Shown here in pieces: positions 1 to 12,716 of a stretch of DNA of 12,716 nt. The notes under the pieces are model-generated. The model searched no databases, was not told the origin of the DNA, and saw nothing but the letters and a program-made list of their open reading frames with translations. This DNA is from Ruminococcus flavefaciens. GTDB lineage: Bacteria; Bacillota; Clostridia; Oscillospirales; Ruminococcaceae. Positions within the stretch are counted from its first letter, which is position 1; every line of letters begins with the position of its first letter. A program made the translations under genes and the position numbers. The DNA is taken from positions 1 through 12,716 of the forward strand of contig CADBAC010000013.1 in assembly GCA_902792495.1 (NCBI GenBank), given 5' to 3'.

Positions 1-1450
1 GTTTGAAGAGCAGGAGTTTCTGGATTTCAAGAGCGTCCTTGGGGGTGATGCCGTCTCCTGTAGAGAAGAGATCACCGTTAAACTTTCCTTTGTCTGTTAA
101 CTGATATTTGCTTGGGTTTGCATATGACTGCATGATGATGACGGAGTCTGATATATCTGTATTGCCGTCAACGTTTGCGTCGCCGTTTCTTTTTTCATCG
201 GCTATCTGTACGACTTCACGGTCATGTTCGGCTTTTTCGGCCTTCTGGTCGTATTCGATCCAGAACTCATAATCAGTGACAAGTTTACCGAGATATCTTC
301 TGAAGTAATAATCGCCGTATTGCATATCTGCATCATCGCCGCTGACACCGTTTCCGTTGAGATCGAAGCATTCGATGAAACGTTTTTCTGCAACGTCGGT
401 TATGAGTTCCGTACCTCTATCCATGAAATTCTTATTCTTGAAGTAGAGATTGTGGAAAACGTGGGAAAGAATATAGTCCTCAGCGTCAACTGTTCCGTTC
501 ATATTGATATCGAGGGTATCTTTGATGGAATTTGTTTCGACTTCGGCCATATAGCGATCTTCCTTGAAGGATTCGATGTAGTTTTCATCAAACTCACTGG
601 TCATAAGGATGGACTTTTTCTGCTCATATGTGAAGTCTTTTACCTTTTCGGGGACGAGTAAGCTGTACATACTGCCTTCTCCCTCGGGAAGGACATCATC
701 ATAAAGCGAAAGCTGGATCTCGTAATTATCTTTGATGAAATGAGCGATAGATTCCGGGTACTGCACATCATAGCCCATATCATCTGCCACATATGACTCA
801 AGGAGATCTACGTCGATCTGTGTAGAAACTTTGCCGTCCCCGTCAAGGTCGAATGTTTCAGTAAAGTTATTCAGTATCTCGTCGCTGATGATCGACATTC
901 TTATATTATCGTTGTAGCTGATATAGTTAGAAATGATCCTTGCAAAGAGATAGTCATTCAGGTCAACATCCCCGTCAAGATCAACGTCAGGCTTCGGGAG
1001 AATTCCGCTGTCCACTTTTTCACGGTATTTGCTGTACAATGAGTATGACTCTTCGTCACTTAAATATATAAGTGTGGTTGTGCGATAATGGCCTGAGTGT
1101 TCGGGGTCGAAATCGGGATGTTCGAGGTAGTAATTGATTATGGCTTCAAGATAATTATCTTCGTCCAGACCAAGCACATCGCCGATATACAGCTGATAGA
1201 GTGCGATATCGTTTATATCGCCGCAAACCTTGTTCTGATTGAGGTCGAGTTCATTCAGGAATGTCTGTCTGTATTCCTCGGGGAACGGTATCTCTTTCTT
1301 GAAGCGGTACTGATCAAAGAACATCAAAGCAAGTCTGAAATCTGCGATATCGTAAAGACCGTCGGAATTAATATCGGGGACTTTGTAACCGGGACTTTCT
1401 GCCAGTTCCTTGAACTTCTCGTATTCCTTTGCGATATTGTCGGGAGAACA
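1..1450 (-). CDS. Dockerin-like repeat protein, C-terminal part (frame-shifted continuation, runs off left edge)
   Basis: This is an open frame of about 480 codons without a stop. It has no convincing start of its own and begins where the upstream gene stops (1452). It continues that gene in the +1 frame, so I read both as one gene broken by an indel. Seen here: EF-hand-like loops starting at 1375 (DINSDGLYDIAD), 1246 (DLNQNK...), 988 (DVDLDGDVDLND), 850 (DLDGDGKVS), 511 (DINMNGTVDAED) and 364 (DLNGNGV). A C-terminal dockerin runs from about 184 to the edge, with NGDANVDG, ANPSKY and GDGITPKDALEIQ. The segment YYLEHPDFDP (about 1125) repeats YYLEDHPFDP, which lies just before the break in the upstream part and supports continuity. 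Dockerins bind cohesins on scaffoldins in a calcium-dependent way. The final few residues lie outside the window. The coding status is firm from the repeats; whether the cell makes this part joined to the N-terminal part is uncertain. Confidence 0.75.
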
Positions 1451-2147
1451 GTCAACACTGCCGTGTTGCCGAGAAAGCGGGATCAAAAGGATGATCTTCC
1501 AGATAGTAAAGCAGCATATAGCGGTGGATGGATTCCTTCATCGGATAAGTTCTGTTGTATTCGTACTGCTTCATTACAGCCGCACATCTTTCAGCGATAT
1601 CCTGAGGAAGTCCGTCTGCCTCCGGATACTCTATGACGCTCTTGAATCTGTAATAATCACATGGGTCATAACCTGTGATAGTATTATCCAGCATTGAGAA
1701 GTAGTAGATATCGTCAATGTTGAAAACGCCGTCACCCGAAACATCCAGATCGACGTTCTTCTCTACGGTCGTTGCTTTGAACAGATCGTAGAACTGATAG
1801 ACAGAAGCTACGCCGGTCGTAAAGCCTTTAAGGTAGTCTTTGTACAGTTCATCAAAGGCTTCTTCAACATCGTCATATGCAGAAAAGTCAATATTTTCCC
1901 TGCAAAAGCTTCTGAAAGGTTCTTCGCTGAGGTGTTCGGCAGTAATAGTGTTATATGTAGCGTAATACTTGTAGACATCGTAAAGATCGTATGCAGGCAG
2001 CTTTAATTCATTTCTTTCTTCGTCGGTCTCGATCTTTGTCAGGCCTGAGAAGTCGTATTTTTCCGGCGACTTGAAGTTTTCGTAGTGCCATGAACAAGCC
2101 ATGCTGTAAACATCTTCGATGTCGAATGTGCCGTCCTTGTTGACATC
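326..2147 (-). repeat. Tandem array of EF-hand / dockerin-like modules
   Basis: Calcium-loop motifs of the form D-x-N/D-x-D/N-G-x-x-D/N-I-x-D occur on the minus strand, starting at 2147, 1745, 1375, 1246, 988, 850, 511 and 364. The last six fall in three pairs spaced 129, 138 and 147 bases apart, the spacing of a two-loop dockerin. The first two each have a degenerate partner (for example YDFSGLTKIE after the first). Modules are joined by helical segments such as YYLEDHPFDP / YYLEHPDFDP. This gives about five divergent dockerin-like units ahead of the canonical dockerin at the end. The repeats are clear at protein level only; the DNA has diverged. Confidence 0.75.
1440..1470 (-). other. Frameshift site in the dockerin-like repeat gene
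   Basis: Reading on the minus strand, the upstream frame ends CGG CAG TGT TGA C, while the frame carrying all later EF-hand motifs passes the same bases one position later (GTT GAC TGT TCT CCC). One surplus base, or two missing ones, in or just before this stretch would restore a single frame. Comparing the two repeats from FDP onward, the spacing to the next conserved helix is almost the same. A UGA-C context as in prfB is present, but the preceding codon TGT would not re-pair after slipping, so a mutation or sequencing error is more likely than programmed frameshifting. Confidence 0.7.
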
Positions 2148-3122
2148 AAGGACACTTTCATTTTCGTGTAATTCTGTTAAGCTATGGAGAGAACCGTATT
2201 CTTCATACTCGGTAGGATATAAGAATGGTGATGAACCTGATATCACGGTGCTGCTGTCAGCAGGCTGATATGAAGGTTCAGGCACTGCTAACGGATTTGC
2301 TGCGAGTATGGAAGCAAGTATAGCTGAAAGCTTTTTCACGTAGGTACTCCTTTCTTCAGATGGGTTATTGATCGAAGTGGTAGTTGAAGGCGGAGCGGAG
2401 GTGAATATCATCGTGGAAGTAACAGGAGGGCTTGAAGTATAGATCTGTGTCTGATAATTTGTAGTGGTTACATATGCTTCAGTCGTTGCATGATATGTGG
2501 GTGCTGATGTAGTTGTCTGCCGAATAGCAGTGGTGGTGGAAGCTGCAGCCGCATACGACGTAGTTGCTGATGCTCCGGATGCGGTAGTTGCTGATTCAGC
2601 GGTAGTGGTTCTGTTTCGCTCAGCAGCTGAAACTGAGGTGCTTGCTGCTTCTGTATTATCTCTGCTCTGTTCTTCACGGTCTGTATTTTCCGTGACCGCC
2701 TTAGCTGTTGTTACTGATGTTTGTGAAGTTATCATCATTGAAGAAGATGCGGATGTTGCTGCGGATGTTTCGCCTGTAGTTCCCATAACAGCGGGAACTG
2801 AGCCGTTCTGAGTTGTTGGTGATGTGGTCGTATCATCTTCGGTGATAATAACATTCTGAGGCTCATGTATACGTTTCGGGCGATAGTTATAGGTAAGACC
2901 TGCCGTAACGCATATGAGCGCCGCAGCGGCAGCCATAGCCGAGAACCACAGCATCCTGCTGCGTTTCTTTTCGGGAACGGTCTGCTGATCATGGATAAGC
3001 ACGTCCATCTTTTCCTTGAATTCAGGGGAAAAAGCATAATCGGGAATATCCTGATCGATCATTTCGTTAAAAGACTCATTGAGAGCCTGTTCAAGCGCTT
3101 TAGTTAAGATATCCTCTTTCAT
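1452..3122 (-). CDS. Membrane anti-sigma-like protein fused to dockerin-like modules (N-terminal part, ends at a frameshift)
   Basis: The ATG at 3122 is chosen over one at 3140. It has AAAGGAGGG just upstream and lies one base after the sigma gene's TAA. The frame gives 556 residues before a TGA. Residues 1-56 are polar and probably cytoplasmic (an anti-sigma-like segment with FSPEFKEKMD). Residues 58-78 form one membrane helix preceded by EKKRSR. Residues 91-258 are a Thr/Ser-rich extracellular linker. Residues 262-281 are a second hydrophobic stretch beginning VKKLSAILAS, which looks like a signal peptide. EF-hand-like loops follow at residues 326 (DVNKDGTFDIED) and 460 (DVSGDGVFNIDD), and the frame breaks after FDPAFSATRQC. 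No zinc-binding anti-sigma or RsgI motif is evident, so the anti-sigma role rests on gene order and topology. By position it should hold the preceding ECF sigma factor at the membrane. Alternative: a membrane-anchored cell-surface dockerin protein with no regulatory role. Confidence 0.8.
   Translation of the reverse strand: MKEDILTKALEQALNESFNEMIDQDIPDYAFSPEFKEKMDVLIHDQQTVPEKKRSRMLWFSAMAAAAALICVTAGLTYNYRPKRIHEPQNVIITEDDTTTSPTTQNGSVPAVMGTTGETSAATSASSSMMITSQTSVTTAKAVTENTDREEQSRDNTEAASTSVSAAERNRTTTAESATTASGASATTSYAAAASTTTAIRQTTTSAPTYHATTEAYVTTTNYQTQIYTSSPPVTSTMIFTSAPPSTTTSINNPSEERSTYVKKLSAILASILAANPLAVPEPSYQPADSSTVISGSSPFLYPTEYEEYGSLHSLTELHENESVLDVNKDGTFDIEDVYSMACSWHYENFKSPEKYDFSGLTKIETDEERNELKLPAYDLYDVYKYYATYNTITAEHLSEEPFRSFCRENIDFSAYDDVEEAFDELYKDYLKGFTTGVASVYQFYDLFKATTVEKNVDLDVSGDGVFNIDDIYYFSMLDNTITGYDPCDYYRFKSVIEYPEADGLPQDIAERCAAVMKQYEYNRTYPMKESIHRYMLLYYLEDHPFDPAFSATRQC
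2331..2351 (-). promoter_or_regulatory. Internal ribosome binding site and in-frame GTG start
   Basis: On the minus strand GAAAGGAG is followed after 7 bases by GTG at 2339-2337, in frame with the surrounding gene (its codon 262). The resulting start reads (M)KKLSAILASILAANPLAV, a basic tip plus hydrophobic core as in a secretion signal, directly before the EF-hand array. This quality of site inside a coding frame is unlikely to be chance and matches the GTG site used by the sigma gene. It could start a secreted, non-anchored form, or mark the original start of a gene now fused to the anti-sigma gene. Confidence 0.6.
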
Positions 3123-3123
3123 G

Positions 3124-3642
3124 TTATCCCTCCTTTTCAAGTATATGTTCCAGTTCAGCCCTTGCCCTCTGGATACGTTTATAGACGTTATCCGAGGAGA
3201 TGCCGAGAATATCTGTCATTTCTCTGGTGCTGTAACCGTAGACGAACTTCAGCATGAGCACATCACGGTATTCCTCCTTGAGTTGTCCGATGGCTTCGAT
3301 AACCGAATCGAAGGAATAGCTGTCGCTGCAATATGTACCCGTTTCTATATCAGGTTCTTCCAGCGCAACTATTCTTTTGTTCGCTCTGTACTTATCCAGT
3401 GCTGCGTTTCTGACTATTATAACGAGCAGGGAGGTCAGTTTTGGACGCTCAAGACGAGAAATTTTCGGAAAAATTTTTGAAGCTCTCAGAAATGCCTCAG
3501 ATACGCAGTCTTCAGCGTCTGCAAAATTGTTAAGTATCTTCATTGCAGTATGCATCATAAGTTTGCGGTTCATGAGGTACATTTCTTCAAAAGTGATCGA
3601 ATTATCTGTTTTTGGGATATCCGACGAATAGACTGCTTCCAC
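3124..3642 (-). CDS. ECF-type RNA polymerase sigma factor
   Basis: A sigma-70 family factor of 172 residues, the usual size for the extracytoplasmic-function group. Region 2 spans about residues 16-85 (FEEMYLMNRKLM..., then ADAEDCVSEAFLRA, which contacts the -10 element and core polymerase). Region 4, with a helix-turn-helix, spans about 112-168 (EEYRDVLMLKFVYGYSTREM, then ILGISSDNVYKRIQRARAEL). I start it at the GTG at 3642 because a full AAAGGAGG lies 8 bases upstream. The ATG at 3705 would add 21 unrelated residues and has no such site. The stop TAA at 3126-3124 is one base from the next ATG, and that gene's ribosome site lies inside the last sigma codons, so the two are translationally coupled. 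It presumably directs transcription of its own operon and of nearby cellulosomal genes; the target genes are inference. Confidence 0.92.
   Translation of the reverse strand: MEAVYSSDIPKTDNSITFEEMYLMNRKLMMHTAMKILNNFADAEDCVSEAFLRASKIFPKISRLERPKLTSLLVIIVRNAALDKYRANKRIVALEEPDIETGTYCSDSYSFDSVIEAIGQLKEEYRDVLMLKFVYGYSTREMTDILGISSDNVYKRIQRARAELEHILEKEG
3128..3135 (-). promoter_or_regulatory. Ribosome binding site of the anti-sigma-like gene, inside the sigma gene
   Basis: AAAGGAGG on the minus strand lies 5 bases ahead of the ATG at 3122 and is made of the last Glu-Lys-Glu-Gly codons of the sigma factor. It decides the start at 3122 and implies that the two proteins are made in a coupled ratio, as is usual for sigma/anti-sigma pairs. 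Confidence 0.8.
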
Positions 3643-3710
3643 AGGATGCTCCTCCTTTCTTTGAGAGTTGTTACTGCTTTGCGTGACAGTAGTAAAGATC
3701 ATCATTTATT

Positions 3711-3743
3711 ATTATAACGTATAACAGGTGCAGGATTCGACAA
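3711..3743 (-). promoter_or_regulatory. Candidate promoter of the sigma/anti-sigma operon
   Basis: A perfect TATAAT lies at 3716-3711 on the minus strand, about 70 bases before the sigma GTG. TTGTCG at 3743-3738 is the nearest -35-like hexamer but the spacer is 21 bases, longer than ideal. GAATCC followed 13 bases later by CGTT in the same stretch could instead be a loose ECF-type promoter used for self-activation. Weak evidence either way. Confidence 0.3.
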
Positions 3744-3849
3744 ATAAATTGTGAACTTTTTGTTAATTTGTGGCAGGGTTAAAAAAGTTGAACGTACTTC
3801 TGCATTTTGTCCACTTGAAAAAATACGAAGCATCGTTGATTTTTATTGA

Positions 3850-3877
3850 TGTAAAATGAAAATCATTATTTTTTACA
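3850..3877. promoter_or_regulatory. Inverted repeat, candidate operator
   Basis: TGTAAAA (3850-3856) and TTTTACA (3871-3877) form an exact 7-bp inverted repeat around a 14-base AT-rich centre, which itself holds ATGA...TCAT. It lies 21 bases upstream of the candidate -35 of the GH43/CE1 gene, where a regulator could bind. The region is AT-rich, so chance is a real alternative. Confidence 0.35.
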
Positions 3878-3898
3878 CCTAATCTGCATAATTTAGGT
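3877..3898. promoter_or_regulatory. Second inverted repeat next to the -35 region
   Basis: ACCTAA (3877-3882) and TTAGGT (3893-3898) form an exact 6-bp inverted repeat with a 10-base centre. Its right arm overlaps the first base of the candidate -35 hexamer. As RNA it would be only a weak stem, so a protein-binding site is the better reading. Confidence 0.35.
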
Positions 3899-3926
3899 TG
3901 TGGAACTGTAGAAAAATTGTTAATAT
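3898..3926 (+). promoter_or_regulatory. Candidate promoter of the GH43/CE1 gene
   Basis: TTGTGG (3898-3903) and TAATAT (3921-3926) are spaced by 17 bases and lie about 70 bases before the ATG. Each matches the housekeeping consensus only in part, which suits a gene needing an activator or an alternative sigma factor. Confidence 0.4.
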
Positions 3927-3993
3927 TATATTAAGAAATGTCATAACAACAAAGAGACATATGTAATGACAAATTATGAAGGAGGATATTGAG

Positions 3994-6900
3994 ATGAGAA
4001 ATAAAAAAGCAGCTGCGATCGCAGTTTCCGCATTGACAGCAATGAGTATGGCTTCATCCGTACCTATGACCTCAAACGCTGATAACCCGATCGTCCAGAC
4101 CTCATTTACGCCCGATCCTGCACCCGTTGTTTTCGGCGACGAGCTCTATGTGTTTACAGGCTGCGACCGTGACGGAAAAAACGATTTCTATAAAATGACA
4201 GGCTGGCAGTGCTTCTCCACAAAGGATATGAAAAACTGGACAGACCACGGCAGGATACTGGAGGATACAAGCTTCAGCTGGTGCGGAGAGAACGACGCAT
4301 GGGCTTCACAGTGTATCGAGCGCAACGGCAAGTATTATTTCTACTTCACCACAACTAACAAGAGCGGCGGCGGAAGAGCTATCGGTGTTGCTGTTGCCGA
4401 CAAGCCCGAAGGCCCCTACAAGGACGTTCTCGGCAAGCCTCTCTGCGGCCCCAACTGGGATTACATCGACCCCACCGTTATGATAGACGATGACGGACAG
4501 GCATGGCTCATGTTCGGAAACCCCAAGTGCTATTATGTAAAGCTCAACGAGGATATGGTCTCGCTGGACGGTCAGATCAAACAGTTTGATATGAACAAGG
4601 AGCAGTTCGGCCCTGCTTCGGGCGAACGCTCATGCACTTACGGCGAGGGTCCGTGGATAACCAAACACGGAGACCTTTACTATCTGGTGTATGCCGCATT
4701 CATAGACGGCTTCGGCGGCGAGAGCATGGCATATTCCACAGGTCCGTCCGTAACAGGACCGTGGACTTATCGTGGCCCTGTGCAGAAAGGCTCAAACTGC
4801 TTCACCACTCACGGCGGTATAATAGACTATAAGGATCATTCCTATTTATTCTATCACAAGAGCGGTATCCCCGGCGGCAGCGTTTATAACCGCAGCGCAG
4901 CCTGTGAGGAGTTCACATACAATGCTGACGGAACTATCAATATCCCTGCACTCACTAATGAAGGTCCTTCACAGCTTGAACTGCTGAACCCCTATGAGAG
5001 AGTTGAAGCTGAGACTATATGCTGGAGCGAGGGCATCAAGACCGAGGAATGCAGCGCAGGCGGCGTGGATATCGGCAACATCGAAAAGGGCGATTACATC
5101 AAGGTGAGCGGAGTCGATTTCGGAAGCGGTGCTGCAAAATTCACAGCAAGCGTTGCCTCTGATACAGAAGGCGGAACTATCGAGCTCCATACAGGCAGCA
5201 AGTCAGGCCCGATAATCGGCGCTTTGCAGGTCAAAGGCACAGGCGGCTGGCAGAAATGGGAGGAAGTCTCATGCGATGTATCTGTAAGCGGCACTGAGGA
5301 TCTCTACCTCGTTTTCAACGGCGGAAGCGGATACCTTCTCAACGTTGACTGGTGGAAATTCACCAAGGCAGGCACATCCGAGTCTACCACAACTGTGACA
5401 GAAGCTCCTGCAACTACAACTGCTCCTACAGTTACAACAACAGTAACACCTTCTGCTGACAGCGGAAACTATATATTCAACGACACTTTCGAGTCAGGCG
5501 ATAACGACTGGTTATCGAGAGGAAGCGCAAAGGTAAGTTCATCATCCGACAAGAAGTACATGGGCTCAAAGGCACTCTATTGCAGCGGCAGAGAAGCTTC
5601 ATGGAACGGCGCTCTGAAAGACCTCGGCACAAGCTTCAAGGCCGGCGAAAGCTACAGCTTCAGTGCAAATGTTCTCAGTGACGGCGGCAAGGACGGCGAT
5701 GTTTACTACCTCACTATGGAGTACAAGGACTCATCTGATGAAGTCCACTATGTCAAGATAGCAAGGTCTCAGCCTGTCAAGGGCGAATGGGTACAGCTTG
5801 CAAACAGCAATTTCAGGATCCCTGCTGATGCTGCTTCAGATATTCATATCTACGTTGAGACCGAGAAGTCAACTGCTTCATTCTACGTTGACGATGTAAA
5901 GGCTGCTAAGGCAGGCACAGTCATCGAAGGCGCAAAGGGCAGACAGTTCATCAGAGGCGACCTTAACAGCGACGGCGATATCAATGTTTTCGATATCATC
6001 ATCGGCAGAAAGTACCTCCTCAAGGGACTCAGCAGCAACGAGACTCTCAAGACTCTTGCAGACGTTGACCGGAGCACTGAGTTCGAGATAAACGATCTTG
6101 TTCTTCTCCAGAACTTCGTAAAGGGCAAGGAAGTTGAATTCCCCGATAATTCACCTGAGCCGCCAAAGAGCAATTTCAACTACGATCCTGCTGTTCAGTA
6201 CCACGAGCCGAAATCCGATTATCTCAGCCCGTGCTCACAGGCAGGTACGATAACAAAGGAAACATACAACGGCATAAGAGGTACAAAGTCGCTTAACGTT
6301 TATACTCCTTACGGTTATGATCCGAGCAAGAAGTACAATATCTTCTACCTCATGCACGGCGGCGGTGAGAATGAGAATACGATTTTCAGCAACGATGTAA
6401 AACTCAATCACGTTCTTGACCACATGATCATGAACGGCGAACTTGATCCGCTGATCGTTGTAACTCCTACATTCAACGGCACAGGCAGTGAGGCCGGCAA
6501 CTTCTACGAGGAGCTGAGAAAGAGCGTTATCCCGTTCGTAGAGGGCAAGTATTCAACATATGCAGAGTCAACATCAGAAGCTGATATCAAGGCTTCAAGA
6601 ATGCACCGTGCATACGGCGGATTCTCAATGGGCGGACTTTCAACATGGTGCGTGGCTGACCACGATATGGACATCGTCGGCTACTTCATGCCGCTTTCGG
6701 GCAATAACTGGGAAGGCATGAACAAGCTCACAGGCGAGATCGACAGCCTCGGATTCTCACAGAGAGACTACTTCATATTCGCTGCTACAGGCGATCAGGA
6801 TATCGCTTACAACAATATGAAGCCTGAAATGGAAGATCTGAAAAAACGTACAAAGTATTTCACATATACTTCCGATTTCTCAAAGGGCAATCTCTACTGG

Positions 6901-7005
6901 CTGGTAGCACCGTCAGTCGGCAATAATAAGAAAACACACTGGTGGGGCTTCGTAAGGTGGTACATCTATGACGGACTGCCGTACTTCTTCCATGAAAATC
7001 AGTGA
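3994..7005 (+). CDS. Secreted cellulosomal GH43 - CBM6 - CBM22 - dockerin - CE1 enzyme (arabinofuranosidase / feruloyl esterase)
   Basis: 1003 residues. The ATG at 3994 is chosen because AAGGAGG lies 8 bases before it; the ATG at 3976 overlaps that site. Signal peptide at residues 1-29. GH43 five-blade propeller at about 30-325, with Asp41 (DPAP, base), Asp159 (DYIDP, pKa modulator) and Glu218 (YGEGP, acid), resembling arabinoxylan arabinofuranohydrolases. CBM6-like xylan binder at 333-457; Thr linker at 458-490; CBM22-like module at 491-640. Dockerin at 650-712 with GDLNSDGDINVFD and a weaker second loop, DVDRSTEFEIND. CE1 esterase at 730-1003 with Ser878 (GGFSMGG), Asp934 or Asp936 and His982 (THWW). 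It would remove arabinose and ester-linked ferulate from arabinoxylan while held on a scaffoldin through an internal dockerin. Monocistronic, with its own terminator. Exact substrate is inferred from family membership; an acetyl-xylan esterase role for the CE1 part is possible. Confidence 0.93.
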   Translation: MRNKKAAAIAVSALTAMSMASSVPMTSNADNPIVQTSFTPDPAPVVFGDELYVFTGCDRDGKNDFYKMTGWQCFSTKDMKNWTDHGRILEDTSFSWCGENDAWASQCIERNGKYYFYFTTTNKSGGGRAIGVAVADKPEGPYKDVLGKPLCGPNWDYIDPTVMIDDDGQAWLMFGNPKCYYVKLNEDMVSLDGQIKQFDMNKEQFGPASGERSCTYGEGPWITKHGDLYYLVYAAFIDGFGGESMAYSTGPSVTGPWTYRGPVQKGSNCFTTHGGIIDYKDHSYLFYHKSGIPGGSVYNRSAACEEFTYNADGTINIPALTNEGPSQLELLNPYERVEAETICWSEGIKTEECSAGGVDIGNIEKGDYIKVSGVDFGSGAAKFTASVASDTEGGTIELHTGSKSGPIIGALQVKGTGGWQKWEEVSCDVSVSGTEDLYLVFNGGSGYLLNVDWWKFTKAGTSESTTTVTEAPATTTAPTVTTTVTPSADSGNYIFNDTFESGDNDWLSRGSAKVSSSSDKKYMGSKALYCSGREASWNGALKDLGTSFKAGESYSFSANVLSDGGKDGDVYYLTMEYKDSSDEVHYVKIARSQPVKGEWVQLANSNFRIPADAASDIHIYVETEKSTASFYVDDVKAAKAGTVIEGAKGRQFIRGDLNSDGDINVFDIIIGRKYLLKGLSSNETLKTLADVDRSTEFEINDLVLLQNFVKGKEVEFPDNSPEPPKSNFNYDPAVQYHEPKSDYLSPCSQAGTITKETYNGIRGTKSLNVYTPYGYDPSKKYNIFYLMHGGGENENTIFSNDVKLNHVLDHMIMNGELDPLIVVTPTFNGTGSEAGNFYEELRKSVIPFVEGKYSTYAESTSEADIKASRMHRAYGGFSMGGLSTWCVADHDMDIVGYFMPLSGNNWEGMNKLTGEIDSLGFSQRDYFIFAATGDQDIAYNNMKPEMEDLKKRTKYFTYTSDFSKGNLYWLVAPSVGNNKKTHWWGFVRWYIYDGLPYFFHENQ

Positions 7006-7007
7006 TA

Positions 7008-7043
7008 AAAAAGCTGCTGTACAGAAATGTACAGCAGCTTTTT
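7008..7043. terminator. Bidirectional intrinsic terminator
   Basis: AAAAAGCTGCTGTACA (7008-7023), a GAAA loop and a perfect 16-base complement ending in five T (7028-7043). It begins 3 bases after the GH43/CE1 stop and ends 13 bases before the stop of the convergent permease gene. The A/T ends make it work in both directions, so it should end both transcripts. Confidence 0.92.
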
Positions 7044-7056
7044 GGTATATCCGCTT

Positions 7057-8154
7057 TTAAAGTATCGTCATGTGGAGTATCAGCAGGGGAATGAGCATAC
7101 CGAAATTGATAAGCGAGAATATGAGTATGTACCTGCCTGACTGCGCACCTTCGGCTTTGCGGTAGATCTGGAATGAGATAAGACTGGCAAGGGATGCGAT
7201 AAGCGTTCCGAATCCGCCTAAGTCTGCACCGAGAAGAAGCTGTGTGCCGTTTTCGGTGAATCCCGAAAGCATTACGGCGGCAGGGACATTGCTTATCACC
7301 TGGGAAAGTAGGGCGGTGACGAGAAGTTCACGTCCGCTGAGGATGGAGGAAAAGAAGTCACGTACAGCATCTATCCTGCCGATATTTCCCACGAAAACGA
7401 AAAACCAGACGAAAGTGGCAAGCAGTGCATAGTCCACTTTGGCAAGAAGCTTTCTGTCGAATATCAGAGCGATCACAACAGCCGCAGCAAAGCAGGCAAC
7501 ATCCGGGATGACTCTCAGCACCGTCAGCAGACATATGACGAAAAGCACACAGTAGCCTGCGGTGGGAACTTTCGGTATCTCCTTATTTTTTGCGGATCCC
7601 GAATCACAGGGAGTATCGGGTATCAGCAGAGTTAGCAGGCAAATCATAATAAGGCTGATGATACCTGCCGGAAGCATGGCTTTTAAGAATGAAAGAGCCG
7701 TCATCTTGTATGTGTCGTATACGAAAAGATTCTGCGGATTTCCGATGGGTGTGAGCATACTTCCTGCGTTTGCGGCCGAAGTTTCAAGGACTATGGTGAT
7801 AATGCGGCTTTTCTCGTCCTTTATGCCCGAATAAACAAGCAGAGTCAGCGGCACAAAAGTGAGAAGTGCAACATCATTCGTGACGAGCATTGCCGAAAAA
7901 TAGCACAGTACAATGAATATCAGCCCAAGTCTGCGGAGGGTACCTGCTTTTTTCAACAGGTATGATGTGGCGTTGTCGAAAATTCCAACGCTCCGAAGTC
8001 CGCCTACCGCCGTCATAAGCGAAAACAGCTCGATGAGAACGGTCTTGTTTATGTAGCCGATGTACTCTTTATCAGGCGGAATAATGAAAACAGTGAGCAC
8101 TGCGGCTAAAAAAGAGATCACCAGAACGGGCTGTGATCTGAAAAATTTCTTCAT
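7057..8154 (-). CDS. SLC13 / ArsB-NhaD (ion transporter superfamily) permease
   Basis: 365 residues. The ATG at 8154 is preferred: GGAGAGG lies 6 bases upstream, and the residues added by a start at 8220 are not membrane-protein-like. The product is almost entirely hydrophobic with about 10-11 membrane helices. Signature segments of the family are present twice, as expected for its inverted-repeat fold: VTNDVALLTFVPL then GNPQNL in the first half, and QVISNVPAAVML in the second. Members move anions such as dicarboxylates, citrate, arsenite or sulfate, or exchange Na+ for H+; the sequence does not let me choose. It follows the HPP-like gene by 88 bases with no terminator between, so they are probably co-transcribed. 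No link to polysaccharide breakdown is evident. Confidence 0.85.
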   Translation of the reverse strand: MKKFFRSQPVLVISFLAAVLTVFIIPPDKEYIGYINKTVLIELFSLMTAVGGLRSVGIFDNATSYLLKKAGTLRRLGLIFIVLCYFSAMLVTNDVALLTFVPLTLLVYSGIKDEKSRIITIVLETSAANAGSMLTPIGNPQNLFVYDTYKMTALSFLKAMLPAGIISLIMICLLTLLIPDTPCDSGSAKNKEIPKVPTAGYCVLFVICLLTVLRVIPDVACFAAAVVIALIFDRKLLAKVDYALLATFVWFFVFVGNIGRIDAVRDFFSSILSGRELLVTALLSQVISNVPAAVMLSGFTENGTQLLLGADLGGFGTLIASLASLISFQIYRKAEGAQSGRYILIFSLINFGMLIPLLILHMTIL

Positions 8155-8242
8155 ATTTATCCTCTCCATAACATTTTGAAGAACGCAGTCACCGGCAAAA
8201 TTTGACGAAAAGACGTGCATGAATCCCTATGTGGACAGGTTC

Positions 8243-9184
8243 TCAGTTCTGCCTTAATACTTTTGTCAGAATGGCCTGACGGTGTGCGATGATCCATGCG
8301 GCAATTGTGAGGACTATCGCTCCTGCGGCTATTTCCGGCGGAAATCTGAACAGCGCTCCCGATGGCACGATAAGGGGAAGTGTTGCTATCGCTCCGCACG
8401 GCGGAAAATACAGCTTTACTCTGCACACTGCAAACAGTATCACCGCACAGGCAGCAGCTGCGGATACAGTCAGCGGCAGTCCCAGCTTTTCAGTGAGGAA
8501 AAAGCGTGAAGCCGAACCCGATACAGCGGCGATGACTATGAGTGAAAGTGCCTGAGGGATGTGCTGAAGCAGTTTGCTCTGCGGTTTTGACATCTCGAAG
8601 AATGCCACGATAAGCGGCGGAGCGGTGAAGAAGATCTCGCCTGTCATTGCCGGCAGCATGGCGATAATGCTGACTGCGGCTATTTGTATGAAGCGCAGTT
8701 CAAACAGCTTTCCGTCGGCATTTACGGGAGTAAACTCATACTTCTGACGTATGCCTGCTTTTATGAAGATACGCTGTGCCGAAAGAATGAGAGCGGTCAT
8801 GACTGCTACCGATATTATGTAAATGGGACTTCTCGTTCCCAGCAGTACGGGGAGTACACAGGCAGACACCGCAGGGAGAAATTCTGTCTTTGAAAGTGTA
8901 ACGCATCCCACAGCTGCGATAAGTGCCACAGGTACTTTCAGCGCAAGCGGAAGCGGGATGAAAACGATACCCACACCGAGAACTGCGGCGGCTGTGATCG
9001 TAAGAAAAAGCCGTAAAGCCGAGGTATTCCACGCCTGTTTCGGAGCGGCAAGTGCTCCTATTGCAACAGCTGTTATCTCGGGGAAGATGATCTCTTTTTC
9101 GTGTAAAAGCTCCGAAGCCGCCACCATTCCAACTGCGAGCAGAAGCGAAACAGCGGCAGGGAGCAGATCTTTTAGTTTATGCAA
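8243..9184 (-). CDS. HPP-family-like integral membrane protein
   Basis: Start taken as the TTG at 9184, with AGGG 8 bases upstream. A good promoter at 9246-9218 lies downstream of the ATG at 9394, ruling out the longer form, whose extra residues are not credible. The product is 313 residues, about 10-12 membrane helices, in two similar halves. In the second half, APPLIVAFFEMSKPQSK and YFPPCGAIATLPLIVP fall where HPP proteins have their Ala-Pro-x-Ser-Pro and HPP-A-GA-ALLP motifs; here His is replaced by Phe. In the first half, FPEITAVAIGALAAPKQAW and TEFLPAVSACVLPVLLG match the same plan. HPP proteins are poorly characterised; a plant member carries nitrite. The family call is tentative. It is the first gene of a two-gene unit with the permease. 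Confidence 0.7.
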   Translation of the reverse strand: MHKLKDLLPAAVSLLLAVGMVAASELLHEKEIIFPEITAVAIGALAAPKQAWNTSALRLFLTITAAAVLGVGIVFIPLPLALKVPVALIAAVGCVTLSKTEFLPAVSACVLPVLLGTRSPIYIISVAVMTALILSAQRIFIKAGIRQKYEFTPVNADGKLFELRFIQIAAVSIIAMLPAMTGEIFFTAPPLIVAFFEMSKPQSKLLQHIPQALSLIVIAAVSGSASRFFLTEKLGLPLTVSAAAACAVILFAVCRVKLYFPPCGAIATLPLIVPSGALFRFPPEIAAGAIVLTIAAWIIAHRQAILTKVLRQN

Positions 9185-9196
9185 TAATATCACCCT
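9182..9196 (-). promoter_or_regulatory. Ribosome binding site deciding a TTG start
   Basis: AGGG(TG) at 9196-9193 stands 8 bases before TTG (9184-9182), which opens LHKLKDLLPAAVSLLLAVG, a basic tip followed by a membrane helix. No ATG or GTG between the promoter and the first helix has a comparable site. Confidence 0.55.
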
Positions 9197-9217
9197 GTCT
9201 GAAAAATTCCAAACGGT

Positions 9218-9246
9218 ATTATACCACATATCGCCGCAAAATGCAA
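9218..9246 (-). promoter_or_regulatory. Promoter of the HPP-like / permease operon
   Basis: On the minus strand TTGCAT (9246-9241), a 17-base spacer and a perfect TATAAT (9223-9218) preceded by TG-G, an extended -10. Transcription would start near 9211, leaving a leader of about 27 bases before the TTG codon. This is the best housekeeping-type promoter in the window. Confidence 0.65.
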
Positions 9247-9276
9247 TACTTATTGTTACGCAGCGGCAACAAAATG

Positions 9277-9316
9277 AACTGCCGATACAGCTCAATAATT
9301 GTCTGTACCGGCAGTT
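9277..9316 (-). terminator. Intrinsic terminator of the GH2 gene
   Basis: AACTGCCGATACAG (9277-9290) and CTGTACCGGCAGTT (9303-9316) pair over 14 positions around a 12-base loop. The single non-Watson-Crick position is A-C on the plus strand but G-U in minus-strand RNA, so the fold favours the minus transcript. It starts 22 bases after the GH2 stop and is followed by CATTTTGTT. The T-run on the plus side is GTTTTTA, but no plus-strand gene enters it. Confidence 0.75.
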
Positions 9317-9338
9317 TTTATGAGGAGTGATATTGTTT

Positions 9339-12300
9339 TTATGGTTCGAGTGAGTCGATGAGTTCAAGCAGATATCTCTGTATCTCAAGGGCATCCTTAG
9401 GAGTTATGCCGTCGCCGTTGTTGTAAACGTCACCGTTGAGAGAACCCTGCTTTGTCATATGACTGCTGTCTGAGCCGCTGAGACCGTATTTGCTCGGATT
9501 TGCAATAGACTGCATGATGAGAACGGCGTCGTCCATGCTTATCTCGCCGTCGCAGTTTGCGTCACCGTAGAGGATATCCTTCTTCGGGTCATCCTGTGGG
9601 ATGTCATCGGGGATATCATCGATAGCTTCGTTTTCAGCGATATTGTCGAAATCAAGCCAGAGCTTTACATACGGACTGTCGGGAGCGTATGCAGGAGAAG
9701 CTGTGCGCTGTGAAGCAAGCTCGGATTCGCTGAGAGCCTTGCTGTAAACTCTGAATTCGTAGAAATCAGCCATGGATGTACGTCCTGTTTCGGGGCAGGC
9801 ACCCATTGTCAGGTCATAGGAAGAAGATGTGATACCTGCTGATGTGCCTGTGCTCTTTTCAGCCACCATCTTGCCGTCGCAGTATATCTTTATCATGTTG
9901 TTTTCGGCATCGTAGATACCTGCCAGCTGATGCTTCTTTCCTATCCAGCCAGAAGCTTCGTCAGTGCCTGTCTTGTAGGAAACTGTGCGCCATTCGCCGC
10001 CTGCGTGGATGAAGAAGTAAAGCATACCGTTCTCGGTCCTGAGGCCGAAAGCGTGGTCGCCCTTGCTGGCTATCATGTTGAATCCGGGATTTCCTGTGGG
10101 GACGAATTCAGCTTCAACTGTGAAGGAATTCTTACCCTCCAGCGACTTGCCTATGCTGTTGCCTGACGGGATGGAAAGTGAACCCGAGACAGCATTTCCT
10201 GCGGTTGTGGATTTGAATACAGCAGGTGACTTCACAGGGATAGTGAGAGCATTTGAGCTCTTGTCCTGTACGCTTATGCCGTCTGAGCGGAGTTTTGCGG
10301 CTGTTGTGGAGAGAGCCTTTCCGTCAGCTTCGGATGATACGGGGATGATGGAGTAGCTCCACTTGTAAGTCCTGCCTGATGGCAGACGGTACTTTTCGAG
10401 AGTACCCTGACCGCAGGTAGCGCTTCCTGTACCCATTGAGCCGTAGTCAACGCTGAGGATGGTCTCCTTTCTCGGTGAAAGCTTGTATACGTGGTCAGCC
10501 TTCTGGAGGTCTTCGGGATAGAAGTGGAGAGCGCTTGCTTCCACAGTGCCGTTTGCAGCTACAAGGAGGCCTGAGCTGTTGTTGTTATTCTTTACGGATA
10601 TCCACTTCACATCGGTGAGGTTTCCTGTGTCGTCAGCCTTCATGTAAGGGAAGAACTGCTCTGAAACTGTGCTTTCCCATACACCCTGACGTCCGCCTGA
10701 TTTTCTGTCATTGAAGCTTTCGGTAAGGTTGCCGTACCAGCTGAGCTGTTCTGAGCCTTCGGGGAGAGTCATCATTGAGCCTACACGGAGGAAATTGCCC
10801 AGTCCCGAGCGTGTAGCGTCCACGCTGAAGTCAACATCAACACGGCCGTCGGGATGAATGGTGTAGTTGATATCCACCTTTGTGTTGCCTGCCTTGGGGA
10901 GGTTGAGGTGAGATGTAACGGTCTTTGCGCCGTTGCTTCCTTCACCTGTGTCTATGCCGATGACTTCGGCTCCGTTCATGGCATTTTCCCATGCTGTGTC
11001 GAACAGCTTTGAACGTGCCGAGCCGCCGTCGTTTTCAACATTTCCTCTCCAGAAGTTGGGAGTTGGGCCCTTATCGATGAGAAGGTCGCCCTTGTAAGTG
11101 TACTTCTCGATAAGGCCTGTTTTCTTGTTGATGGAGAAATTGAAGTCGTTATGCTCATTTGTAGGAACATACGCATCGGGAGTATCGACAACGGTAACGG
11201 AACTGTCGCCGCTGTTATATTTAGCGGAACTTCCTGCGGAATCGATGTTAAGCTGTTCGTAAGCAACTTCTGTGCCTGCGGGGAGAAGGTCTGTAGCCTT
11301 CTTTGTGGTAACGGATATATCGAGGATGAACTCATCGCCCGAATAGTATTTCTCGGGAAGCTTGAAAGGAACAGTGAAAGAATTCTTTGAAAGGGGAGCG
11401 CACTGTGCGTCGTCGATAGTGCCGCTTCCGATTGCAATACCGTTTTTCAGAAGCTTCCAGTTAACGTTGAACTCGCTGAGGTCGAGGAAGTTGTTCTCGT
11501 TGTATACGGAAACTGTATTTGCAGCCAGCTGCTGAGAATTTGCGCTGAACCAGAAACTCTGATACTGATAGCGTACCTCGTCGGCTTCGGGCTGAGGAGT
11601 TCTGTCAGGGCTGATGATACCGTTTTCGCAGAAGCTGTTGTCGTTGGGCTTGTCGCCCCAGTCACCGCCGTAACCGAAGAATTTGCCCTTGCTGTCCTCG
11701 GCGTAGAGATTCTTGTGAGCGTAGCTTTCGGAGTAGTAGTCCCAGCCGCCATTCACCTTTGAAAGGGGAACAGCTCTTGACTGATCTACCCAGTCCCAGA
11801 TGAAGCCGCCCAGCATATTCTGATTTGCTCTGATAGCGTCCCAGTATTCCTTGAGAGCGCCCACGGAGTTGCCCATAGCGTGGTCGTATTCGCACATAAC
11901 ATATGGTATCTTTCCGTTGCCGCCGTTGCCGCCTACCCAGTCGGAACCGGGGTACATATTACTGTTCATGTCAACGCCAAGTTTGTCGCCCTGACCTTCA
12001 CTGTGAACGGGACGGGTATTATCGTGCTTCTTGAAGTACCATATCATGTCACGGAACATACCGCCTGCCGCATTGGGGTCGCCGGTGTATGCCATTTCGT
12101 TTCCGATGGACCATGCAACGATAGCAGGATTGTTCTTGAGGCGCTGATATGCGGTCTCTGTTCTGTCCATAGCCAGTTCGTAGAATTTAGCCTTGTTGTT
12201 GTTATCGTTCATGAGGGCATGGCACTCCATATTTGTCTCGCCCATCATGTACATACCGTACTTGTTGCACAGCCAGTAAAGATAAGAATCGTTGCTGTAG

Positions 12301-12716
12301 TGGGAGGTACGGATAGCGTTTACATTGTTTTTCTGCATGAGGCGGACGTCCTCTTCCATAGTAGCCTGCGGAACAGCCTTGCCGTAGAACGGGTCGGTGT
12401 CGTGACGGTTGACACCTTTGAGGAGGAGTCGCTTACCGTTGATGGTGATGGGCTGCCACTGCTTGGTGGTGACCTTGTAGCTGTTGTCGACCTGAGTAGG
12501 AGTGAAGCCAACTTCTCTGAATCCCAGCTGAGTAGATACCTTTTCCTGAACGTTGCCCTTGTCGTCCCTGAGAGTGAGAACGAGAGCGTACAGATTCGGA
12601 TCTTCGGCAGACCACAGTTTCGGAGACATGACTTTGGTCTTGATGCTGAAAGTGCCCTTGTTCCAGCCGTTGACCTTGTCCACAGCAGTTGAAGCGCCGC
12701 TGAGGATATTATTTCC
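9339..12716 (-). CDS. Cellulosomal LacZ-type GH2 beta-galactosidase with LamG-like module and dockerin (5' end outside window)
   Basis: 1125 residues visible, open to the right edge, so the signal peptide and the N-terminal sugar-binding domain are missing. Counting from the edge: end of an Ig-like domain to ~80; catalytic TIM barrel ~85-370 with VNRHD, RTSHY, WSIGNE (acid/base Glu207) and YVMCEYDHAMGNS (nucleophile Glu276); the metal-site Glu and His of LacZ are kept in NMECH; LacZ domain 4 ~380-500 after SPDRTPQPEADEV; LacZ C-terminal domain ~520-800; a LamG/concanavalin-like fold ~835-1000; acidic linker; dockerin 1050-1125 (YGDANCDG, then GDGITPKDALEIQ). It would release terminal beta-galactose from plant polysaccharide side chains while mounted on a scaffoldin. 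A beta-galactosidase is favoured over glucuronidase or mannosidase by the full LacZ domain set; the natural substrate is not shown. Confidence 0.93.
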   Translation of the reverse strand, partial: GNNILSGASTAVDKVNGWNKGTFSIKTKVMSPKLWSAEDPNLYALVLTLRDDKGNVQEKVSTQLGFREVGFTPTQVDNSYKVTTKQWQPITINGKRLLLKGVNRHDTDPFYGKAVPQATMEEDVRLMQKNNVNAIRTSHYSNDSYLYWLCNKYGMYMMGETNMECHALMNDNNNKAKFYELAMDRTETAYQRLKNNPAIVAWSIGNEMAYTGDPNAAGGMFRDMIWYFKKHDNTRPVHSEGQGDKLGVDMNSNMYPGSDWVGGNGGNGKIPYVMCEYDHAMGNSVGALKEYWDAIRANQNMLGGFIWDWVDQSRAVPLSKVNGGWDYYSESYAHKNLYAEDSKGKFFGYGGDWGDKPNDNSFCENGIISPDRTPQPEADEVRYQYQSFWFSANSQQLAANTVSVYNENNFLDLSEFNVNWKLLKNGIAIGSGTIDDAQCAPLSKNSFTVPFKLPEKYYSGDEFILDISVTTKKATDLLPAGTEVAYEQLNIDSAGSSAKYNSGDSSVTVVDTPDAYVPTNEHNDFNFSINKKTGLIEKYTYKGDLLIDKGPTPNFWRGNVENDGGSARSKLFDTAWENAMNGAEVIGIDTGEGSNGAKTVTSHLNLPKAGNTKVDINYTIHPDGRVDVDFSVDATRSGLGNFLRVGSMMTLPEGSEQLSWYGNLTESFNDRKSGGRQGVWESTVSEQFFPYMKADDTGNLTDVKWISVKNNNNSSGLLVAANGTVEASALHFYPEDLQKADHVYKLSPRKETILSVDYGSMGTGSATCGQGTLEKYRLPSGRTYKWSYSIIPVSSEADGKALSTTAAKLRSDGISVQDKSSNALTIPVKSPAVFKSTTAGNAVSGSLSIPSGNSIGKSLEGKNSFTVEAEFVPTGNPGFNMIASKGDHAFGLRTENGMLYFFIHAGGEWRTVSYKTGTDEASGWIGKKHQLAGIYDAENNMIKIYCDGKMVAEKSTGTSAGITSSSYDLTMGACPETGRTSMADFYEFRVYSKALSESELASQRTASPAYAPDSPYVKLWLDFDNIAENEAIDDIPDDIPQDDPKKDILYGDANCDGEISMDDAVLIMQSIANPSKYGLSGSDSSHMTKQGSLNGDVYNNGDGITPKDALEIQRYLLELIDSLEP

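Follow-up and report, generated by a model that had tools for sequence, protein, structure and literature searches.

What does a sigma factor control, and what does its membrane partner sense, when the outer half of that partner is built from dockerin-type modules? This question is raised by the stretch of DNA analysed here (the window, 12,716 bases), which is an entire contig (G000:C13) of a MAG with 79.6% completeness and 531 contigs. The evidence points, with a rough probability of 0.55, to an autoregulated ECF sigma/membrane anti-sigma module that would be coupled to the cellulosome and would yield a secreted copy of its dockerin array from the same gene. The sigma gene, the sensor gene and the divergent neighbour are arranged as follows.

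2-193, minus strand: terminal group-1-type dockerin with two loops, its stop codon lost beyond the contig end (sequence, structure-database match)
230-2160, minus strand: array of EF-hand/dockerin-like modules with eight calcium-loop motifs, spanning the frame break, limits approximate (sequence, Pfam)
1450-1486, minus strand: frame break, where the first open reading frame stops and reading resumes in another frame (comparison with P0002 and FD-1)
2355-2894, minus strand: Ser/Thr-rich linker of the sensor, without a stop codon (sequence; disordered in the model of the relative P0001)
2895-2951, minus strand: single transmembrane helix of the sensor, limits approximate (hydropathy)
2952-3122, minus strand: predicted cytoplasmic anti-sigma segment of the sensor, 55 residues (precedes the single helix; co-varies with sigma)
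3124-3642, minus strand: ECF sigma factor gene, class A (Pfam regions r2 and r4_2; GTG start with Shine-Dalgarno sequence; homologous starts in relatives)
3994-7005, plus strand: divergent neighbour, GH43-CBM6-CBM_4_9-Dockerin_1-Esterase (Pfam; Shine-Dalgarno sequence before ATG 3994)

The product of the sigma gene matched Sigma70_r2 (4.3e-10) and Sigma70_r4_2 (1.9e-13) in Pfam and TIGR02937 in NCBIfam (74.4 bits against a cut-off of 42.9). As a small protein with regions 2 and 4 and without regions 1.1 and 3, it is by sequence an ECF sigma factor; the NCBIfam/Pfam matches listed are ECF families, and no SigI model is among the 25 of 88 listed. The comparison with RsgI made in the original prediction holds by analogy only, SigI/RsgI being a different sigma/anti-sigma family.

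The sigma frame and the sensor gene overlap at the sensor ATG (3120-3122), and the sensor gene runs on to the contig edge. The predicted pairing of a sigma gene with a membrane-protein gene is supported, and the topology was also as predicted, with one hydrophobic helix, a Ser/Thr linker and an outer half of dockerin-type loops. An N-in orientation of the helix was judged by eye from the positive residues ahead of it. Coupled to an ECF gene and carrying an N-in single helix, the sensor is, by gene order and predicted topology, a putative membrane anti-sigma protein. At the thresholds used, neither Pfam nor NCBIfam assigned its N-terminus to a known anti-sigma family, and neither an RsgI N-terminal domain nor an outer carbohydrate module was matched by Pfam at E <= 0.1 in the open reading frames of the window and eight relatives.

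In this assembly, the sensor consists of two open reading frames, one at 1452-3140 that ends in a stop codon and the remainder at 2-1486 in a different frame. P0002, a Ruminococcus sp. MAG protein, is 95.7% and 96.3% identical to the two halves, and both P0002 and the sensor of R. flavefaciens FD-1 (L031) read through this position without interruption. The frame break is therefore probably an assembly error or a local mutation, and it was regarded as confined to this assembly. At the junction, some 40 residues that P0002 has are missing. The junction itself (1450-1486) reads CAACAC-GGCA-GTGTTG, a short perfect inverted repeat.

The terminal 64 residues matched the R. flavefaciens group 1 dockerin 5m2o_B, which has a solved structure, at 2e-17 over 56-58 aligned residues, and 5m2s_B at 3.5e-14. 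The proposed terminal dockerin is thus supported as a real one. In Pfam, Dockerin_1 passed its cut-off in the second sensor frame (26.7 bits against 22.9) and remained below it in the first (14.7 bits). Group 1 dockerins of R. flavefaciens are borne by enzymes, which they recruit to the cohesins of ScaA/ScaB, and the cohesin-contact residues of Doc1a described in PMC5429695, I39, S40, V43, M46, Q47, K54, Q83 and L87, are retained in the sensor dockerin, L87 having been assigned by counting past the end of the alignment. On the match and the contact residues, the terminal module is by sequence a group 1 dockerin, and would be expected to dock on a cohesin. Among the sensors of the family, 25 of 44 passed a strict group-1 dockerin motif, and some sensors end in a different EF-hand pair.

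For the array as a whole, Foldseek returned no fold match from a model with a mean pLDDT of 69.2 and a pTM of 0.52, values because of which the packing of the modules was left uninterpreted. Against the PDB, the sensor model retrieved nothing at E <= 0.001, and the first-ranked entry was again the dockerin 5m2o_B (0.041). In the model of an FD-1-type protein, the helical modules are well modelled from residue 240 to about 920, the linker is unmodelled and the terminal module is less certain. The eight internal loops with calcium-ligand residues in the window could be taken to form a calcium sensor, in which calcium-dependent folding of the EF-hand loops reports calcium. However, dockerin loops generally bind calcium structurally (PMC5429695) and no evidence for a sensing role was found, so that this explanation is very improbable.

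Two other genes in the window also encode dockerin-bearing enzymes. In the divergent GH43 gene, AAGGAGG separates a first ATG at 3976 from a second at 3994, which opens a signal-peptide-like sequence; 3994 is the likelier start. At 9339-12716 lies a GH2 beta-galactosidase-type enzyme, open at the contig end, with a C-terminal dockerin of the sensor's type, in which 38 of 67 aligned residues are identical to the FD-1 sensor dockerin. Dockerin enzymes nearby are not the rule across the family, since another group-1-like dockerin frame was present in only 11 of 39 stretches, a count made with our own profile, which misses other dockerin types, and including two stretches with a sub-threshold domain fragment only.

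The original prediction had called for a search for the same pair in other Ruminococcus genomes. The first sensor frame was matched in 36 of 125 genomes of the genus at E <= 1e-3, in some of them weakly. In 39 of 41 stretches (40 retrieved around the best matches, and the window), a long EF-hand sensor lies downstream of an automatically recognised ECF gene and in the same orientation. Altogether, 72 unique pairs were collected within the genus Ruminococcus, R. flavefaciens FD-1 included, of which 65 are unique ECF/EF-hand sensor pairs; uniqueness refers to an 80-residue stretch, and some pairs are closely related. The pair is thus conserved in related genomes, contrary to the lack of conservation that the original prediction had named as refuting it. 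The closest genome, that of R. flavefaciens FD-1 (G002, contig ACOK01000058.1), has an identical gene order and 92.4% DNA identity over 2817-11787 of the window.

Other searches were less informative as to distribution. A whole-genome scan with the window's sensor gave no match. Searches with the class B/D and class C sensor alignments matched 125 of 125 genomes at E <= 1e-3 and were rejected as a census of pairs because the matches were mostly other dockerin proteins. At the family level, the class C alignment matched 0 of 297 genomes at E <= 1e-50, a weak negative since the window's own genome also falls below this threshold. Cohesins were found in 124 of the 125 genus genomes and are so nearly universal that their co-occurrence with the sensors discriminates nothing.

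The sigma factors form several clades, each with its own type of sensor N-terminus. Between the main classes, sigma identity is 23-25% and the N-termini reach no more than 23-27%, while the outer parts are still recognisably alike. Over 861 pairs from 42 sensors, divergence in the N-terminal 55 residues correlated with that of sigma at r = 0.88, against 0.61 for the outer part. For class A alone, the values were 0.76 and 0.54, respectively; for class B/D the difference was small (0.97 and 0.92), and for class C there was none (0.75 and 0.76). This co-variation fits an anti-sigma role for the N-terminus, which would bind the sigma factor. The anti-sigma-like membrane protein originally proposed has stood as regards its architecture, except that its gene is split over two frames in this assembly.

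The outer part diverges fastest. Between L033/L034 and L039/L040, the sigma factors are 95% identical, whereas the outer middle of the sensors is 12-58% identical per 60-residue block, the first 120 residues 85-93% and the last block 73-77%. Between the window and the FD-1 type, sigma identity is 87%, the two sensor halves are 44% and 47% identical, and the terminal dockerin shares 56 of 63 residues. The divergence of the outer part in these comparisons (L033/L034 with L039/L040; the window with L031) resembles allelic exchange or fast receptor diversification.

Such rapid change, with 12-58% in the middle blocks against 95% in sigma and 73-93% at the ends, suits a part that follows changing ligands, and speaks for a different reading, in which the variable array binds plant polysaccharide or protein and thereby frees the sigma factor, as in RsgI, and the dockerin merely parks the sensor and its secreted copy in the cellulosome. 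The outer modules of RsgI are CBM, PA14, peptidase or unknown modules (PMC3413522). However, Pfam identified no CBM or other carbohydrate domain in the outer part, and no fold resembling the entire array was retrieved with a model of mean pLDDT 69. Substrate sensing by the array is rather unlikely on this evidence, and cohesin docking through the terminal dockerin is the likeliest input suggested by the sequences, the surest output being the module's own dockerin-array protein.

That the array protein would also be made in a secreted form is indicated by signals within the sensor gene. None of these signals (a ribosome-binding site, a start codon and a signal peptide within the frame) was part of the original prediction, nor were the promoter in the sigma gene and the frame break.

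2346-2354, minus strand: internal Shine-Dalgarno sequence GAAAGGAGT, which encodes Glu-Arg-Ser (DNA reading, conservation)
2268-2339, minus strand: internal GTG (2337-2339) opening the signal peptide of the predicted secreted isoform; C-terminal end of the peptide approximate (sequence, conservation)

Past the variable linker, the sensors share an ERSxxMKK motif, which in DNA is GAAAGGAGT-N6-ATG-AAA-AA, that is, a Shine-Dalgarno sequence, a start codon and the beginning of a signal peptide. When the candidate was taken as the best Shine-Dalgarno sequence among signal-peptide-like starts, 58 of 65 sensors had an in-frame internal start with a Shine-Dalgarno energy <= -9 and a signal-peptide-like sequence, whereas only 2.1% of 1350 other internal start-type codons attained that energy. 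The start codon is ATG in 57 sensors and GTG in the window. Of the remaining seven, three have a weak Shine-Dalgarno sequence at the expected start, two have a poor candidate only and two have no candidate. When the signal peptide was picked blind to the Shine-Dalgarno sequence, a strong one lay close upstream in 56 of 65, although just 18 of the 65 picks coincided with a start-type codon, any residue being allowed as a pick.

The residues encoded under the Shine-Dalgarno sequence vary: ERS in 38 sensors, RRV in 7, EGS in 7, and RRI, ERG, ERN, KEV, EGG and ERR in 1 each. Where they are ERS, AGG accounts for 38 of 40 Arg codons but for 24% of those in the whole gene, and AGN (AGT/AGC) for 40 of 40 Ser codons but for 38% in the whole gene, both without adjustment for kinship in the sample. 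The correctly spaced Shine-Dalgarno sequence, the start codon and conservation at the DNA level in 58 of 65 sensors together make this, by sequence, an internal in-frame start. Because these signals are kept as DNA through different amino acids, two products are expected from the sensor gene, the membrane sensor itself and its outer half as a separate secreted protein. Homologues lacking the anti-sigma part begin at the same point at 14 of 14 loci retrieved for this purpose, where no ECF gene was called. These stand-alone secreted array homologues (L128-L141) are 511-553 aa long and have recurring neighbours.

The existence of such stand-alone homologues makes a fusion origin plausible, and the internal signals might then be relics of the joining of an anti-sigma gene to a gene for a secreted dockerin protein, with the long product alone being of consequence. 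The 7 of 65 sensors without a strong Shine-Dalgarno sequence agree with this. In contrast, the Shine-Dalgarno sequence is kept as DNA through varied amino acids and registers and across classes whose sigma factors are just 23-25% identical, while the adjoining linker is unconserved, and relics are accordingly an improbable explanation. Alternatively, the signal-peptide-like segment, which nearly all sensors have after the linker and ahead of the array, could act within the full-length chain, where a signal peptidase cut would free the array and make a second translation start unnecessary. This would leave the conservation of a correctly spaced Shine-Dalgarno sequence and of ATG/GTG unexplained, and is quite improbable.

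One uninterrupted frame of at least 550 codons, from anti-sigma part to array, follows 56 of 61 unique sigma genes in classes A-E; of the five exceptions, four are shorter open reading frames and one is cut by the end of its contig. Since the fusion frame is uninterrupted and the internal start conserved, selection seems to keep both.

The regulatory side of the module was read from two promoter-like sites.

3711-3742, minus strand: P1, TGTCGAA-N16-CGTTATAAT, a promoter of ECF type ahead of the sigma gene (exact match; seven class A upstream regions)
3416-3447, minus strand: P2, promoter matching P1 with 1 mismatch, within the sigma coding sequence and upstream of the sensor (9/9 genomes; codons invariant in 14/14)

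In seven class A regions ahead of the sigma gene, a TGTC[CG]AA-like box is followed after 16 bases by a CGTTATAAT-like box, some of the regions departing from this by one or two changes. Scanning nine genomes for the class A promoter with <= 1 mismatch gave 15 sites, all at the genome's own class A locus, nine of them P2 (9/9 genomes) and six P1 (6/9 genomes); a reversed control pattern gave 4 matches in the same scan. Under P2, 14 of 14 unique class A sigma genes use identical codons for Pro, Lys, Leu, Val and Ile, compared with a top-codon share that averages 0.69 over 86 columns, and the five fully invariant columns with at least three synonymous codons all lie in or beside P2.

The other classes have different boxes in the same layout. 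For class B, all six genomes scanned have a single site with 0-1 mismatch, which in each lies at the genome's own class B sigma gene; ten more sites appeared at 2 mismatches, against 40 control matches. For class C, allowing <= 2 mismatches gave sites in only 2 of 7 genomes, in each case at the genome's own locus, so that the consensus was too narrow. In class B/D sigma genes (27 unique), the opening codons AAC GGT ... AGT AGC TAC CGT are nearly invariant at synonymous sites. They contain an inverted repeat, ACGGT...ACCGT, a possible RNA or DNA signal.

As the promoter matches are confined to the sigma loci themselves, they point to narrow, self-directed regulons, judged on strict promoter copies; more degenerate targets are possible. 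The feedback from the sigma factor onto cellulosomal enzymes that had been envisaged was not borne out at this strictness. Control of such enzymes by the window's sigma factor was set aside, since no promoter copy with <= 1 mismatch lay outside the locus in the nine genomes (15/15 at the own locus), and inspection by eye of the region upstream of the divergent GH43 gene revealed no copy with the P1 spacing.

Gene order, topology, dockerin type, the internal Shine-Dalgarno sequence, start and signal peptide, the promoter-like sites and their conservation are given by the sequence. From these we infer that the sigma factor is bound and released, that the internal start is used, that the dockerin docks and that the two forms compete, in the following scheme for the autoregulated module. 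The short N-terminus of the sensor would keep the sigma factor at the membrane, and the Ser/Thr linker would take the dockerin-like array across the wall, where the terminal group-1 dockerin may dock on a cohesin of a ScaA/ScaB-type scaffoldin. From the internal ribosome-binding site, the array would be made with its own signal peptide and secreted with an identical dockerin. Docking, or tension on the docked sensor, would free the sigma factor, which would then transcribe its own operon from P1, with P2 within the sigma gene supplying additional sensor and secreted protein. The secreted copies would fill the cohesins, compete with the membrane copy and so turn the signal off.

Taken further, the module might act as a meter of vacancy in the cellulosome: membrane and secreted forms would compete for cohesins, free cohesins or a pull would fire the sigma factor, more of both forms would be made until the cohesins were full, and the device would have been multiplied in Ruminococcus into classes with different promoters. 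This extension is put forward tentatively and is less likely than not.

Should the scheme be true, one gene would encode a receptor and its own soluble competitor. With a second start in the sensor gene and a promoter in the sigma gene, coding sequence would be overlaid with further signals in a way that is rare. The family concerns the regulation of the cellulosome in Ruminococcus, a main rumen cellulose degrader, as a multiplied sigma/anti-sigma family with a cellulosomal docking module, and because the model strain FD-1 has it, the question is open to direct experiment. Literature searches agreed with the original statement that no described system of this form was known: neither an ECF/dockerin anti-sigma pair nor a secreted isoform of one was found in the openly available article texts that the searches covered.

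Among known systems, the biomass-sensing SigI/RsgI pairs of Clostridium thermocellum and Acetivibrio are alike in several respects: the sigma factor is accompanied by a membrane anti-sigma factor that has one helix and a large outer part, there are several paralogous pairs, and the organisms make cellulosomes (PMC3413522, PMC11557425). In contrast, the sigma factor of the window is of the ECF type, the outer part is a dockerin-type array rather than CBM, GH or PA14, and the Ruminococcus pair has an internal start for a predicted secreted isoform and a promoter inside the sigma gene. A 2024 survey places RsgI suites and sensors only in Acetivibrio-type cellulosomes, and its accessible part names no Ruminococcus counterpart of RsgI (PMC11557425). 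In R. albus 7 on cellulose, an ECF gene and an adjacent transmembrane hypothetical (Rumal_2572/2573) were up 8.8- and 8.2-fold (PMC4300822, Table 2). These two, among the R. albus 7 genes most induced on cellulose in that source, have the same arrangement as the ECF/sensor pair and are candidate members of the family.

ECF/membrane anti-sigma pairs resemble the present one in gene order, topology and an autoregulation-type promoter, whereas the anti-sigma segment of the window has no Pfam or NCBIfam family match at the thresholds used and the outer part is of dockerin type. Unlike the other group 1 dockerins of R. flavefaciens, the one described here sits on a membrane regulator and a predicted secreted isoform rather than on an enzyme. 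Bacterial genes with in-frame internal starts give N-terminal proteoforms, so that one frame has two products. In the present case, one of them would be an anti-sigma factor in the membrane and the other a secreted protein carrying a signal peptide of its own.
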